Shown here: positions 34,256 through 40,791 of the stretch, one piece after another
Layout of the letters: each line of letters begins with the position of its first letter
Position numbering within the stretch: position 1 is the first letter of the stretch
Assembly (NCBI RefSeq): GCF_013340305.1
Contig: NZ_BLVP01000001.1
Location: 186,001 to 250,000, forward strand
Origin: Desulfovibrio psychrotolerans
GTDB lineage: Bacteria > Desulfobacterota > Desulfovibrionia > Desulfovibrionales > Desulfovibrionaceae
Length of the DNA: 64,000 nucleotides
Reading direction: 5' to 3'
Position numbers and translations under genes: made by a program
The notes under the pieces: generated by a model
What the model was told of the DNA's origin: nothing
What the model saw: only the letters and a program-made list of their open reading frames with translations
Database searches by the model: none

Positions 34256-35821
34256 TTAGCTGGCTGCACCTGCGGGAGCAACACGGGTCTGGCCGTCCCA
34301 GATAAGGGGAGCCTTGGGGGCAACCTTGAGATACTTGAACCATTCGTGGCTCTTCATATGCTCAGGGTCCATCATCAGTTCACGGCTGTGGTTCAGGATG
34401 GGCGGCACCAGTTGCTTTATGTCGCCGTCCAGATCCTTGGCAATGGCAAACCCGGTTGCGCGGATGGCTGCCTCAACAGACTTCTGGCTGTACTGCTGCG
34501 ACTTGGCAAGCGTATCAAGCGCCTTTGTGGGGTTGTGGAAGCCCACGCTATTTTCTGCAGAAACATAATCCCAGAAGAACTGACCCTTACGGCACCATTC
34601 GCGTGCTTCAATCATCAGGTCTTCGTAGCTGGCGGGCTTGTCTCCCGCGTATTCCGCAGCACGGCGTATGGCCTCGTGCGCACGCACAGAGATTTCCTGT
34701 GCAATGAGCAGCTGGTCAAACACCTTCTGCTGCGTGTCCACAACACGTCCGCGCAGATACTCAGGCGTCTTGTCGGTGTGGCACTGGCGGCAGGCGTTCA
34801 GGTTCACGTCCTTGAGGGGCGAGGTCCACTGGTGGTCGGATATCTTCTTCTTTCCGTCCAAACGCTTGTAAGACATGTGGCAGTCTGCGCAGGCAACGCC
34901 GGCGGCACCGTGCGCACCGTTGGACCACATTTCATATTCAGGGTGCTGGGCCTTGAGCATGGGCGTCTGCGACACGGGATGTATCCAGTCATAGAACTGC
35001 CCTTCAAATCCCTTGATGGTGGAGTCGCCATGGCCCTTGTAGTAGGTGTACATGTTTTCGGGGTCCAGCCCTTCGGTCCACGGGAACACAGGACGGGCAG
35101 CCGGGCCGAACTCCTTCTTCTGGAAGTAGTATTCCACGTGGCACTGGCCGCACATCATGGAGCGCTTTTCATTGCGGGGAATGGTGTTCCAGTCACGACC
35201 GTCCGCTTCAAGGAAGGCCTTCAGCGGCTCGCTGTACAGCTGCAATTCCATGGTTTCCGCGTTGTGGCAGTTGGTGCAGCCGATGGTATGATCCTTGGCA
35301 TCCAGTGCCTGACGGAACTGGTTGAAATCCTTTGCCCAGAAATCCTGCCCGTGTTCTTCAATGAACTTGGGCATCATGGTGGTCTTGCAGTTATAGCAGG
35401 TGGAAGGCAGGCCGCCCTTTTCATCGTACCGGTTTATGCGGTCAATATGCATGATGTCGTCAACGGCATACGTATGCCCGCGGGCTGCGCGGTATTCGAA
35501 GCTGAAGGGATATCCCAGCCAGAGATTTTTCAGATACGGCTGCGCATGCTTGTAGCCTTCCGGCAGCGGATTCACATTATCATGCTTGTTGTACGGTACA
35601 GAGCCGCCGTATTCCGTCATGATGGTAGATTCATCGTTGCGCAAATACGTTTTATAGTGCAGGGGAAACACCTTTTCAAACTGCGAGTTGCGAATTTCCT
35701 CCTTGGGCAGGTTTGTCTTGTAAACAGGAGTTACAGGCTCCACGGCATCGGAACAGCCGGAAATAAGGAGCACCGCCCCCAGACACGCACAGCACGCTAT
35801 GGCAGAAAGTATTCTAGACAT
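34256..35821 (-). CDS. nrfA: Cytochrome c nitrite reductase catalytic subunit
   Basis: 521 aa pentaheme enzyme reducing nitrite to ammonium with six electrons. The catalytic heme has the special lysine ligand motif CYNCK (142-146). Four normal motifs follow: CTNCH (182-186), CGQCH (224-228), CADCH (311-315) and CRQCH (344-348). The signal region ends in LLISGC (C23), a lipobox, so this NrfA may be lipid-anchored in addition to binding NrfH. GAGGAAGG precedes the ATG, which overlaps the end of nrfH by eight bases. In a sulfate reducer it also detoxifies nitrite, which blocks sulfite reductase. Confidence 0.96.
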   Translation of the reverse strand: MSRILSAIACCACLGAVLLISGCSDAVEPVTPVYKTNLPKEEIRNSQFEKVFPLHYKTYLRNDESTIMTEYGGSVPYNKHDNVNPLPEGYKHAQPYLKNLWLGYPFSFEYRAARGHTYAVDDIMHIDRINRYDEKGGLPSTCYNCKTTMMPKFIEEHGQDFWAKDFNQFRQALDAKDHTIGCTNCHNAETMELQLYSEPLKAFLEADGRDWNTIPRNEKRSMMCGQCHVEYYFQKKEFGPAARPVFPWTEGLDPENMYTYYKGHGDSTIKGFEGQFYDWIHPVSQTPMLKAQHPEYEMWSNGAHGAAGVACADCHMSYKRLDGKKKISDHQWTSPLKDVNLNACRQCHTDKTPEYLRGRVVDTQQKVFDQLLIAQEISVRAHEAIRRAAEYAGDKPASYEDLMIEAREWCRKGQFFWDYVSAENSVGFHNPTKALDTLAKSQQYSQKSVEAAIRATGFAIAKDLDGDIKQLVPPILNHSRELMMDPEHMKSHEWFKYLKVAPKAPLIWDGQTRVAPAGAAS

Positions 35822-36290
35822 CGGCAGCCTTCCTCGTCGATATGGGCTTTCTCGGGGTGTGGGGAACATGGCGATGACAGGACATGCACGATTCCTTGTT
35901 ATCCATGTTCACGGTCATGACAGTCGAGGTGTGACAACGAACGCAGTTTGCCTGAACCACTTCCAACGTGTTGCCCACGGGATGGATGAGGTCCGGCACG
36001 GTACCCAACGTATTCACGTAGATATCGCGCGTTCCCGCTGCGGCCTTGAAGGGTATCTTGGCCACAATGTTGTGAGGGGCATGGCAATCGTTGCACGAAA
36101 GCTTGGAATGCACCGATTGCGAGTGGGTGAGCACGGCTTCCGACATGGCATGGCATCCTCCACAGAACCCTGCCGTATCAGTGGTCACCATTGCCAGCCC
36201 GGCCCCCACTGTCAGGGCCACACCGGCAAGCCCCGCCAGAATGACGGCCTGCCACCTTCGGCCTGACTGGCCTTCCTTAAGTAATGACAT
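35814..36290 (-). CDS. nrfH: Nitrite reductase electron-donor subunit NrfH
   Basis: 158 aa NapC/NirT-family tetraheme quinol dehydrogenase. One N-terminal membrane helix (about 14-35) anchors a periplasmic domain with CGGCH (43-47), CNDCH (66-70), CVRCH (116-120) and CMSCH (135-139). It passes electrons from menaquinol to NrfA. GGAGGAG lies before the ATG at 36290; the 30 extra in-frame residues upstream are rejected. First gene of the nrfHA operon, downstream of a sigma-54-like promoter and a repeat array. Confidence 0.95.
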   Translation of the reverse strand: MSLLKEGQSGRRWQAVILAGLAGVALTVGAGLAMVTTDTAGFCGGCHAMSEAVLTHSQSVHSKLSCNDCHAPHNIVAKIPFKAAAGTRDIYVNTLGTVPDLIHPVGNTLEVVQANCVRCHTSTVMTVNMDNKESCMSCHRHVPHTPRKPISTRKAADV

Positions 36291-36401: not shown

Positions 36402-36417
36402 TCCAAGAAACATGCCA
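36402..36417 (-). promoter_or_regulatory. Candidate sigma-54 promoter of nrfHA
   Basis: On the minus strand the sequence TGGCATG-TTTC-TTGGA keeps the -24 TGGCAYG element and the exact GG-N10-GG spacing; only the -12 dinucleotide (GG in place of GC) departs from consensus. It lies about 110 bases before the nrfH ATG and about 90 bases from the palindrome array that would serve as enhancer. Confidence 0.6.
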
Positions 36418-36504
36418 CCTTAATTCTGTAGCACACACTACAAGCATAAACAATCCGGCATGATATCGTATTATAATTTCGCAGATGACAGAAAGGCCCT
36501 CTTG

Positions 36505-36563
36505 TGTCATGTTTTTATGACATATTGTCATATTTTTATGACAAGCGTCATGTTTATCAGACA
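36505..36563. promoter_or_regulatory. Phased palindromic operator array between nrfH and its kinase gene
   Basis: Two perfect palindromes TGTCAT-N6-ATGACA (36505-36522, 36526-36543) are followed by a degenerate third copy (36546-36563), with start-to-start spacing of 21 and 20 bp, about two DNA turns. The position, upstream of a sigma-54-like promoter and 40 bases before the kinase ATG, fits enhancer sites for the NtrC-type regulator encoded at 39274. Confidence 0.8.
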
Positions 36564-36602
36564 TGTTGCCGGGTTCATTGCCCATTCAAACCGGAGCAAC
36601 CA

Positions 36603-39272
36603 ATGGCACATCGCATTCCGCTTCTTCCGGGTCTGCTTCTTCTGCTGTGGAGCATGTTGCTGGCTGCACTCTTCACATGGAGCGCCATCAGCGAAAAAAA
36701 GCATGTAAACGACGTAGCCCTCAGGCAGGCGCGGGCTTTTTTCCAGCAAATTGTTTCCACCCGCGAATGGAACGCGGAGCATGGCGGGGTCTATGTCATG
36801 GTGGCAAACAACGTTATGCCCAACCCCTACCTCATCGATAAGGACAGGGACATAACCACCGTTTCCGGACAAACGCTCACCAAAATCAATCCCGCCTACA
36901 TGACCCGCCGTATTTCTGAAATCCTCTCAGACAGCACGGGCGTGAGCTTTCACATTACCAGCTTAAATCCCCTGCGCCCCAACAATGCACCGGACCTATG
37001 GGAAAAGAAGGCACTCCTCGGATTCGAAAATGGCGAGCCGGAACAGTTCCAGCTGGTGGACGAAGCGGAAAAGCAGGAATACTTCCGCTATATGGCCCCC
37101 CTTGTTGCCACAGAAAACTGCCTGCCCTGTCACAGCGAACTGAAAGGCAAAAGCGGCGGAATACGCGGGGGCATAAGCGTCACCATTGCCGCCGCTCCCC
37201 TCCTCAGGCTGGGACAGGACAACATTAACCGCATAGGCATGGGGTATCTGCTCATCGGCATCGTGGGCTTTTTCGGAATAGGCGCCTCCACCCTGCAGAT
37301 TTTGCGCAAGCGCGAACAGGCGGAGGCGGCAAACCGCATGAAGAGCATGTTTCTGGCAAACATGAGCCATGACATGCGCACCCCCCTCACCGGCATCATC
37401 GGCATGGCTGAACTGCTCAGAAAGGACGCGCGGAACGACCAGCACAAGGAGTATACCGCCCAGCTTCAGCTTTCGGCAGAGACGCTGCTGGATATTGTCA
37501 ATGACATCACGGACTTCTCCCGGCTGGAATCAGGCCGGATGGAGCTTGCCGCCAATACGTTTTCCCTGTCGCGACTGCTGGAAAGTGCCCTTGGCGTTGT
37601 GCAGTTTTCCTGTGACAGAAAGGGAATACGGCTCAGCGCCACCATCGACTCAGATGTGCCGGATGTGCTGCAGGGCGACGGTTTCCGCCTGCGGCAGATG
37701 CTGGGCAATCTGCTGGGCAACGCGGTCAAGTTCACAGATTCCGGCGAAATATCCGTACATGTGTCCCTCTGCCGGAACCCTCAGATTCAACACGCCCTTT
37801 CCGTGGAACCCCCTCAACGCAGCGATGAATGCATGCTCTCTTTCTCTGTGCGCGATACGGGGGTCGGCATCCAGCCATCCCAGCAGGCAGCCATTTTCGA
37901 AAGCTTCACGCAGGGCAGCGAGGCTCTGTCCAGAGGGCAGGCAGGCACCGGTCTCGGCCTTGCCATCACCCGCCAACTGGTCGAGATGATGGGCGGCACC
38001 ATTCATGTGCAGAGCCAGCCCGGAACCGGCAGCACCTTCACCTTCACCGCGCGTTTCGACCTGCCTCAGGATCTGCGTGTTGCCGCCCGCGCCATAGCGG
38101 CAGCCAGAGCCACTCCCGCCCCCGCATCCGGAACCGATGCAACACCGCATTTGCTGCTCCGCCCCCTCCGCATTCTTGCGGCAGACGACAACCCGCTCAA
38201 CCGCACCTATCTCAAAGAAGTGCTCTCCGGCATGGGGCACAGCGTGGAACTGGCCGAAAATGGCAAAGAGGCTCTTGCCCTGCTGCGCGACAGCCAGTTC
38301 GATGTGGTCCTCATGGACGTGCAGATGCCTGTCATGGATGGTCTGGAAGCCACAGGGCGCATCCGCTCCGGCAAGGAGACCGGCATTCCGGCCGATATCC
38401 CCGTGGTGGCTGTCACAGCCTTCAGCGTGGACGGTGACAGGGAACGGTTCCTCAACGCGGGCATGAACGCCTACATCAGCAAACCCATGACTGGTGATGC
38501 CCTTAAAGCGATTCTTACCGATCTCTTCGGCAGGCCCGGAGAAGCTACGCCCAAGGCACTGCAAAACTGCGGCGAAACCATCGGCAGCGCTCCCTCACGA
38601 AAGACCGCCCGGAAAATGCCGCATGACAACGTGCCGGAATCTGCGCATACGGAACAACAATCCCCCGGACCGATGGAACCCGCTGCAATGCCAAATGAAC
38701 CCAATAAGCACGAACCATCCAATGATGACCCGGATACCGCGAAAGCGGCAAAGGTCATGCCCCCGAAGAGCGAAAGCCTCCGGGCTTCTATGGCATCCGC
38801 AGACACAGTCGCGGACAAACCCGCCAGCCCGTCCGCTCCGGCACTGCAGAACAAATCTTTTTCTTCCATGTTCAATGCGCAGAGCGCCCTTGCTGCCATG
38901 GGCGGAAACTCCAACCTGCTCCTGCGGCTCTGCCGTGCCTTTATGGAAGAGGTTCCCGCACGCTGCACGGAACTCGCTTCTGCCGTCGAAGCCCGGGACT
39001 GGCGGCAGGCAGCCCGATTGGCGCACGCGGTAAAAAACTCTGCTGCCATGCTCGCAGCTCAGCCCCTGCACGATGCCGCCAAGCGTTTGGAAATACTGTG
39101 CGTAACGCACCCGGACGCCGCTTCAAACGCAAAAAACGCTGCCTTTCCCCTGCCTCCATCGGCGGTGCCTGTAACAGCGCGCAACATAGACCTGCAACTT
39201 AAAGTGATTCTTGAACTGTTACCCCCCACCATCGCACAACTCTCTGCTCACGCTGACGCTATTCAGGACTAA
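36603..39272 (+). CDS. Hybrid histidine kinase with periplasmic heme-c sensor domain
   Basis: 889 aa. Helix 1 (about 6-26) and helix 2 (about 205-225) enclose a periplasmic domain of the DUF3365/Tll0287-like type with a c-type heme motif CLPCH (173-177). A HisKA domain follows with H256 (MSHDMRTPL), then HATPase_c (NLLGNAVKF, GTGLGLA), a receiver with D572 (LMDVQMPVMDG), a long low-complexity linker (about 640-750) and an HPt domain with H808 (AHAVKNSA). This is a complete phosphorelay. GGAGCAACCA precedes the chosen ATG; a longer frame would read through the operator array. One base separates it from the regulator gene. Likely signal: nitrite, NO or redox state through heme (inference). Confidence 0.9.
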   Translation: MAHRIPLLPGLLLLLWSMLLAALFTWSAISEKKHVNDVALRQARAFFQQIVSTREWNAEHGGVYVMVANNVMPNPYLIDKDRDITTVSGQTLTKINPAYMTRRISEILSDSTGVSFHITSLNPLRPNNAPDLWEKKALLGFENGEPEQFQLVDEAEKQEYFRYMAPLVATENCLPCHSELKGKSGGIRGGISVTIAAAPLLRLGQDNINRIGMGYLLIGIVGFFGIGASTLQILRKREQAEAANRMKSMFLANMSHDMRTPLTGIIGMAELLRKDARNDQHKEYTAQLQLSAETLLDIVNDITDFSRLESGRMELAANTFSLSRLLESALGVVQFSCDRKGIRLSATIDSDVPDVLQGDGFRLRQMLGNLLGNAVKFTDSGEISVHVSLCRNPQIQHALSVEPPQRSDECMLSFSVRDTGVGIQPSQQAAIFESFTQGSEALSRGQAGTGLGLAITRQLVEMMGGTIHVQSQPGTGSTFTFTARFDLPQDLRVAARAIAAARATPAPASGTDATPHLLLRPLRILAADDNPLNRTYLKEVLSGMGHSVELAENGKEALALLRDSQFDVVLMDVQMPVMDGLEATGRIRSGKETGIPADIPVVAVTAFSVDGDRERFLNAGMNAYISKPMTGDALKAILTDLFGRPGEATPKALQNCGETIGSAPSRKTARKMPHDNVPESAHTEQQSPGPMEPAAMPNEPNKHEPSNDDPDTAKAAKVMPPKSESLRASMASADTVADKPASPSAPALQNKSFSSMFNAQSALAAMGGNSNLLLRLCRAFMEEVPARCTELASAVEARDWRQAARLAHAVKNSAAMLAAQPLHDAAKRLEILCVTHPDAASNAKNAAFPLPPSAVPVTARNIDLQLKVILELLPPTIAQLSAHADAIQD

Positions 39273-39273
39273 C

Positions 39274-40791
39274 ATGGCAAATATACTGATCATTGATGAC
39301 GAACTCATGGTTCGCACACTCCTTGCGGAAGTGGTCACGTCGCAGGGCCACACGGCTGCCTCGTTTTCCGATCTTTCCGGCGGGCTTGCACACGCCCGTG
39401 CACACGCCTGCGACCTCATCTATCTGGATGTGCTCCTCCCGGACGGAAACGGGCTGGAAGCCCTGCCCGAACTCAAAAAACTGCCCTCTGCCCCGGAAGT
39501 CATCGTCATCACCAGCCATGGCGACCCGGACGGTGCCGAGCAGGCCGTACGACACGGCGTATGGGAATACCTGCATAAGCCGTTCACGGTAGACCGCATA
39601 TCGCTTTCCCTTGAACGCGCCCTCTCCTTCCGCCACAGAAAAATCCACACCCCCGGCGGCATATCCCTGCACAGGCCAGACATCATCGGCAACAGCTCTG
39701 CTTTGCTCTCTGCCCTGAACCTTGCTGCAGAAGCTTCATCCACCAACGTAAATGTCCTGCTGCAGGGAGAAACAGGCACCGGCAAAGAACTGTTCGCCAA
39801 GGTAATTCACCAGAACAGCGTCCGCTCCCACAAGCCGTTCGTCACGCTGGATTGTGCCTCCTGCACAGATTCCCTTATAGAAAGCCAACTCTTCGGCCAT
39901 GTGCGCGGTGCCTTCACCGGTGCAGACAGACACCGCGACGGCTTGCTCAAACTGGCCCACGGGGGCACCCTTTTTCTCGATGAAATAGGCGATCTACCCC
40001 TGCACATTCAGGGCAACTTTCTCCGCGCGCTGGAAACAAGACGCTTCCGCCCCGTGGGCGCTACGCACGAAGCCGAAAGCGATTTCCGGCTCATTGCCGC
40101 CACCAACAAAGACCTGCATGAAATGGTGCGGCTGGATATGTTCCGCGCCGACCTGCTGTACAGGCTGCGCGGCCTTACCATCACATTGCCGCCGCTGCGC
40201 AGACGTCAGGAAGACCTCCCCCTGCTCATCAATCACTACCTTGACCGGCACTGCCGCACCTACGGGGTGTGTACCAAGCAGGTTTCCGGCGACTTCATGG
40301 AAGCCGTCACCGTATACGACTGGCCGGGAAACATCCGGGAACTCGTGCACGCCCTGGAACGCGCCTGTACTGCCTCGCAGGGAGACCCCACCCTCTTTGC
40401 CCGGCAACTGCCCACGGAAATACGGGTTCAGGTGGCGCGCACCCTCGCCCGGCGTGAAGGCGAGCATGGCCTTATGCCCGCTGCTTCCTCAGTCAGCACG
40501 GCCCACCCACACGCAGAAGAACGGATAGCGCATCCTGCATCCATTGAACCGCATGTCCAATCCCTTCCGCATACACCCCACGCAATGTTCGGTCTTCCCG
40601 CTGCCTATGCCTCCGTTACCACTGCCGCCACTCCGCCCACCCTCAAGGAGTTCAGGCACGAAGCCGAACTCCGTTACCTACAGGACGTGCTCCGCCTCAC
40701 AGCGGGCAATATCCGCAAAGCCGTGGAGATCACGGGCCTTTCCAGAGGCCACCTGTACGGACTTATGAAAAAGCACGGAATATCGGCATAG
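39274..40791 (+). CDS. NtrC-type sigma-54-dependent response regulator (NrfR-like)
   Basis: 505 aa. Receiver domain with D52 (IYLDVLLPDG), AAA+ domain with Walker A GETGTGKE near 165-172, the sigma-54 contact loop GAFTGAD, Walker B GTLFLDEIGDL, and a C-terminal Fis-type helix-turn-helix (about 480-503). A Pro/Ala/His-rich linker (about 400-465) precedes the last domain. It is the partner of the upstream kinase and the natural ligand of the TGTCAT palindromes. From memory, D. vulgaris has a regulator beside nrfHA named NrfR that controls nrfHA; this gene is its likely counterpart. Confidence 0.92.
   Translation: MANILIIDDELMVRTLLAEVVTSQGHTAASFSDLSGGLAHARAHACDLIYLDVLLPDGNGLEALPELKKLPSAPEVIVITSHGDPDGAEQAVRHGVWEYLHKPFTVDRISLSLERALSFRHRKIHTPGGISLHRPDIIGNSSALLSALNLAAEASSTNVNVLLQGETGTGKELFAKVIHQNSVRSHKPFVTLDCASCTDSLIESQLFGHVRGAFTGADRHRDGLLKLAHGGTLFLDEIGDLPLHIQGNFLRALETRRFRPVGATHEAESDFRLIAATNKDLHEMVRLDMFRADLLYRLRGLTITLPPLRRRQEDLPLLINHYLDRHCRTYGVCTKQVSGDFMEAVTVYDWPGNIRELVHALERACTASQGDPTLFARQLPTEIRVQVARTLARREGEHGLMPAASSVSTAHPHAEERIAHPASIEPHVQSLPHTPHAMFGLPAAYASVTTAATPPTLKEFRHEAELRYLQDVLRLTAGNIRKAVEITGLSRGHLYGLMKKHGISA

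Follow-up and report, generated by a model that had tools for sequence, protein, structure and literature searches.

In Desulfovibrio vulgaris Hildenborough, the two-component regulator NrfR (DVU0621) targets DVU0624-0625 (PMC3333781, PMC4641369), the NrfS-NrfR pair confers induction by nitrite (PMC5701242), and the sites for NrfR upstream of nrfHA, which are 16 bp long, have been validated (PMC6456213). Both NrfR binding and nitrite-dependent activation of nrfHA have been reported for this organism (PMC3333781, PMC4641369, PMC5701242, PMC6456213), while the signal sensed by NrfS remains to be revealed (PMC5701242). The 16-bp NrfR consensus has been called very similar to the sites of a second regulator, LurR, whose printed sequences include GTCCACTTTTTCAGAC (PMC6456213). 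The locus described here, in a window of 64,000 nucleotides from Desulfovibrio psychrotolerans, is a further case of NrfS-NrfR and nrfHA, so that its main reading is that of a system already known.

On the minus strand of the window, nrfH (35814..36290) encodes a tetraheme quinol dehydrogenase of the NapC/NirT family, 158 aa long, with four CxxCH motifs and a match to Pfam PF03264; its best NCBIfam match is the NrfH model TIGR03153, though below the cut-off of that model, and AGGAGG lies upstream of its start at 36290. The pentaheme nitrite reductase gene nrfA (34256..35869, minus strand; Pfam PF02335) has PDB 2vr0/2j7a as the closest structures of its product (E ~1e-240), and its frame is drawn from the furthest start, the true start perhaps lying slightly downstream. 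Divergent from nrfHA, as expected for an NrfS-NrfR system, are nrfS (36603..39272, plus strand), a hybrid sensor kinase with a Tll0287-like haem domain (CLPCH), HisKA, HATPase, receiver and Hpt domains, and nrfR (39274..40791, plus strand), a sigma-54 activator that has the domains of its namesake: a receiver, an AAA+ domain with GAFTGA and a Fis-type HTH. In having a sigma-54 two-component regulator beside nrfHA, the locus resembles that of D. vulgaris Hildenborough (DVU0621, DVU0624-0625). A plasmid search returned no close relative.

A sigma-54-type -24/-12 promoter of nrfHA, TGGCATG-TTTC-TTGGA (TGGCATG-N4-TTGGA), is located at 36402..36417 on the minus strand, and the preliminary description was correct in placing such an element pointing at nrfH beside the gene for an NtrC-type regulator. 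The predicted nrfH transcription start is at approximately 36391, giving a leader of about 100 nt. Together with rpoN, which was found in the genome, this promoter accords with an NrfS-NrfR system and deviates at one base of the -12 element, TTGG here versus the consensus TTGC (tTGCt in D. vulgaris; PMC4641369). This deviation was considered as a novelty and dropped, since the published D. vulgaris por promoter likewise lacks the C (TTGTT; PMC6456213) and por in the D. psychrotolerans genome has TGGCATATTTTTTGTT. Among 45 nrfS-linked promoters counted in the nrfS-adjacent loci L004-L036 and L146-L204, 40 had a base other than C following TTG (A in 23, T in 11 and G in 6).

Upstream of this promoter are three palindromes, annotated without strand. 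Enhancer site 1 (TGTCATGTTTTTATGACA, 36505..36522), a proposed NrfR dimer site kept across the family, and enhancer site 2 (TGTCATATTTTTATGACA, 36526..36543) are perfect TGTCAT-N6-ATGACA palindromes offset by 21 bp, within the 19-22 bp usual for such sites in the family. Enhancer site 3 (CGTCATGTTTATCAGACA, 36546..36563), a further 20 bp on, is weaker, with three mismatches, and is also seen in the two nearest relatives. All three sites match GTC-N10-GAC in full, and because this 16-bp frame is complete, site 3 is less degenerate than its three mismatches suggest. The frame, compared with the LurR sequences in PMC6456213, identifies the sites upstream of nrfH as 16-bp sites of the NrfR type. 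As at nrfHA of D. vulgaris Hildenborough, they stand upstream of a -24/-12 promoter, the nitrite response itself being a feature of D. vulgaris; unlike the D. vulgaris sites, two of the three are perfect extended palindromes. The scan thus bore out two perfect copies and a degenerate third at spacings of 21 and 20 bp, and the array does lie upstream of the promoter, although the earlier figure of about 90-160 bases is replaced by measured distances of 87 bp to its near edge and 146 bp to its far edge.

The perfect palindrome occurs three times in the 3.79 Mb genome versus zero times for a reversed control, and five times versus two when one mismatch is allowed. A scan of the 64-kb window allowing three mismatches found 14 sites versus 19.4 expected, which is not above chance, and the significance of the array therefore comes from its two adjacent perfect copies and their conservation rather than from that scan.

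Conservation was examined across the Desulfovibrionaceae, where 172 of 288 genomes contain an NrfH relative, using 46 regions upstream of nrfS that adjoin nrfH or its replacement. The palindrome was present with at most two mismatches in 38 of these 46 regions, which are kin by descent, so that this and the following counts are not of independent events and overstate independence. As a control, 119 letter permutations of the palindrome were found in an average of 0.76 regions of the 46, the highest count (14 regions) belonging to a permutation that is a variant of the motif, TTTCAG. The palindrome was absent from all 87 regions preceding other Tll0287-type kinases and was found in 3 of 30 preceding nrfH genes with no nrfS nearby; in genomes of genus group g38 that have two nrfH genes, the site is present only at the nrfS-adjacent copy. 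Two loci (L137 and L143) have NrfR-type palindromes before an nrfH with no adjoining nrfS, and there the pair may lie elsewhere in the genome. Phylogenetic footprinting of this kind supports a functional role for the palindromes.

The geometry of the sites is conserved as well. A 6-bp centre is strongly preferred in the nrfS-adjacent regions, and site pairs across the family peak at spacings of 19-22 bp and 40-45 bp, with 54 pairs observed at 20-23 bp versus 1.0 expected in shuffles and 28 observed at 40-45 bp versus 1.3 expected. In most nrfS-adjacent regions the best palindrome and a -24/-12 element are separated by 87-124 bp, and these distances form two clusters, 87-95 and 110-115 bp, that differ by two helical turns. 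This pattern of spacings and distances fits sites on one face of the helix, as had been proposed from the window itself. Both the operator of NrfR and the helical phasing of its sites hold across the Desulfovibrionaceae, providing a clean consensus for tests.

Family conservation, the domains of NrfR, the presence of rpoN and the published D. vulgaris system together support the enhancer and sigma-54 reading, and we consider it very probable that the three palindromes and the promoter constitute an NrfR-activated switch for nrfHA. The original suggestion that the adjacent NtrC-type regulator binds the array and drives nrfHA is accordingly retained as the best reading; the sequence, the domains, the conservation and the phasing on which it draws are established for the D. 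psychrotolerans locus. In the proposed mechanism, a covalent c-type haem would probably allow NrfS to detect periplasmic nitrite, or the NO accompanying it, and phosphate would pass from the receiver and Hpt domains of NrfS to NrfR, the two-component sigma-54 activator whose dimers are predicted to bind the palindromes. Phosphorylated NrfR would then occupy the sites along a single helical face, oligomerise and loop over approximately 90 bp, and its use of ATP would open the sigma-54 RNA polymerase at the minus-strand promoter, leading to transcription of nrfHA and the reduction of nitrite to ammonium. For this organism, we infer the signal chemistry, the order of the phosphorelay and the looping.

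The sensor region of NrfS (window 36603-37430) bears on the nature of the signal. It matches PF11845 (E 2e-22), is flanked in the sequence by hydrophobic segments and contains CxxCH, as do the sensor regions of all 46 NrfS orthologues examined, and this invariant motif suggests a covalent c-type haem in NrfS. A PDB sequence search with the sensor domain gave no significant match. By its PF11845 match and CxxCH, the N-terminus of NrfS belongs with the sCache_heme (DUF3365/Tll0287) domains, which a 2026 preprint describes as haem-c Cache domains, one signalling-fused member binding NO tightly; the text of that preprint names neither NrfS nor Desulfovibrio (PMC12889525). That the NrfS haem senses NO or nitrite is a reasoned proposal by analogy with these domains. 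Elsewhere the same genome encodes a second Tll0287-type sensor protein (contig C1:403959-404477, minus strand), with 42% identity across a portion of the domain.

Given the similarity of the published sites, another sigma-54 regulator with a nearly identical site, chiefly LurR, might bind the array instead, which would tie nrfHA to lactate metabolism. The LurS-LurR system of the lactate operon (DVU3025-3033) also has a sigma-54 regulator, three 16-bp sites of similar frame and a promoter with a non-consensus -12 element, ending in TTGTT; the 16-bp frame is common to NrfR and LurR, and in vitro the sites of LurR are also bound by NrfR (PMC6456213). LurS-LurR differs in having C rather than A at position 4 of the site, lactate oxidation as its target and a PAS-type kinase. 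The D. psychrotolerans genome itself has a lurSR-like pair adjoining a por gene with LurR-like sites, and these allow the two kinds of site to be distinguished, since position 4 is C in the LurR-like sites (GTCCGTTTTTTCAGAC) and A in the nrf array (GTCAT...ATGAC). Throughout the family, moreover, the array tracks nrfS-adjacent loci, and binding chiefly by LurR is therefore improbable. At the lurSR-like locus (L240:356-9739; contig C5:62000-76000), the genes for a hybrid PAS kinase, a sigma-54 regulator and pyruvate:ferredoxin oxidoreductase resemble lurSR-por, with a GTCCGTTTTTTCAGAC site and a TGGCATATTTTTTGTT promoter upstream of por. LurSR and nrfSR thus seem to coexist in this genome, a combination called uncommon in PMC6456213.

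The preliminary description had also raised autoregulation of the kinase-regulator pair. The array ends only 39 bp before the nrfS ATG and could overlap an nrfS promoter, but among relatives the site begins anywhere from ~34 to 222 bp before nrfS (approximate starts), whereas the interval between site and nrfH promoter is conserved, which favours nrfH as the target. A sigma-70 promoter search for nrfS gave one weak match versus 0.7 expected and no conserved nrfS promoter. Autoregulation of nrfSR is accordingly possible but unsupported, and that the array mainly controls nrfSR rather than nrfHA seems slightly less probable still than binding by LurR. A flagellar-type regulator (DVU2894/FlrA-like; consensus yGTCA-N6-TGACr) has identical GTCA/TGAC half-sites (PMC4641369) but is a very improbable owner of the palindromes, since the gap from GTCA to TGAC is 8 here versus 6 in that consensus, the conserved centre length is strict, and no flagellar gene lies beside the array.

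With NrfR preferred as the regulator and nrfHA as its target, the genome scan for TGTCATN6ATGACA suggested earlier as a way to list the regulon was carried out and yielded no further target: the third perfect palindrome, within a 1006-aa open frame, and the two sites with one mismatch all lie in long open frames, leaving nrfHA as the one credible target of the scan. No secondary target was found to parallel the binding of D. vulgaris NrfR to the lactate operon and DVU3384. No NapA above the cut-off was found in the genome, which therefore lacks the nap target proposed for D. desulfuricans.

In some relatives the switch faces a different enzyme. Both in Halodesulfovibrio (L034, L035 and genus-mates) and in genomes resembling Pseudodesulfovibrio (L036, L203 and others), the array and promoter face genes for a tetraheme protein of NapC/NrfH type and an eight-haem cytochrome of the HAO family. 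These tetraheme and octaheme genes stand opposite nrfS where nrfHA would be, with the array and sigma-54 element unchanged in kind, at, for example, L034:3753-5705 and L203:7451-9390. Among PDB entries, the octaheme cytochrome matches the hypothetical multiheme protein 4qo5 best and hydroxylamine oxidoreductases next. In Halodesulfovibrio, a gene downstream of nrfR (L034:9938-10561) ends in a single CxxCH and looks cytochrome P460-like by eye. When the sensor regions of NrfS are placed on a tree, the kinases linked to octaheme genes form two distinct groups, both well supported, of which one is the sister of the group to which the NrfS of the window belongs, in the same genus; the tree thus requires at least two changes of target. 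Judged from these sequences, the target enzyme is exchanged beneath a conserved switch in the Halodesulfovibrio and Pseudodesulfovibrio relatives. No published account of this exchange was found in the literature searched, which is not proof of novelty. A broader reading, held with a little less than even confidence, is that NrfSR and the phased array form a portable periplasmic NO/nitrite-sensing module, in which the kinase reads NO by means of a c-type haem Cache domain and the enzyme under control, pentaheme NrfHA or the NapC-like and octaheme HAO-family pair, has been swapped at least twice.

The nrfHA switch is very probably how this sulfate reducer turns on its nitrite-detoxifying enzyme, and the sensitivity of sulfate reducers to nitrite matters in the control of oil-field souring. 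The haem motif in every NrfS offers a concrete, testable answer to what NrfS senses. The exchange of targets provides regulation-based evidence on the role of a little-studied octaheme cytochrome in marine sulfate reducers and, if the switch is indeed a portable module, the octaheme enzymes of Halodesulfovibrio and Pseudodesulfovibrio would be nitrite reductases.
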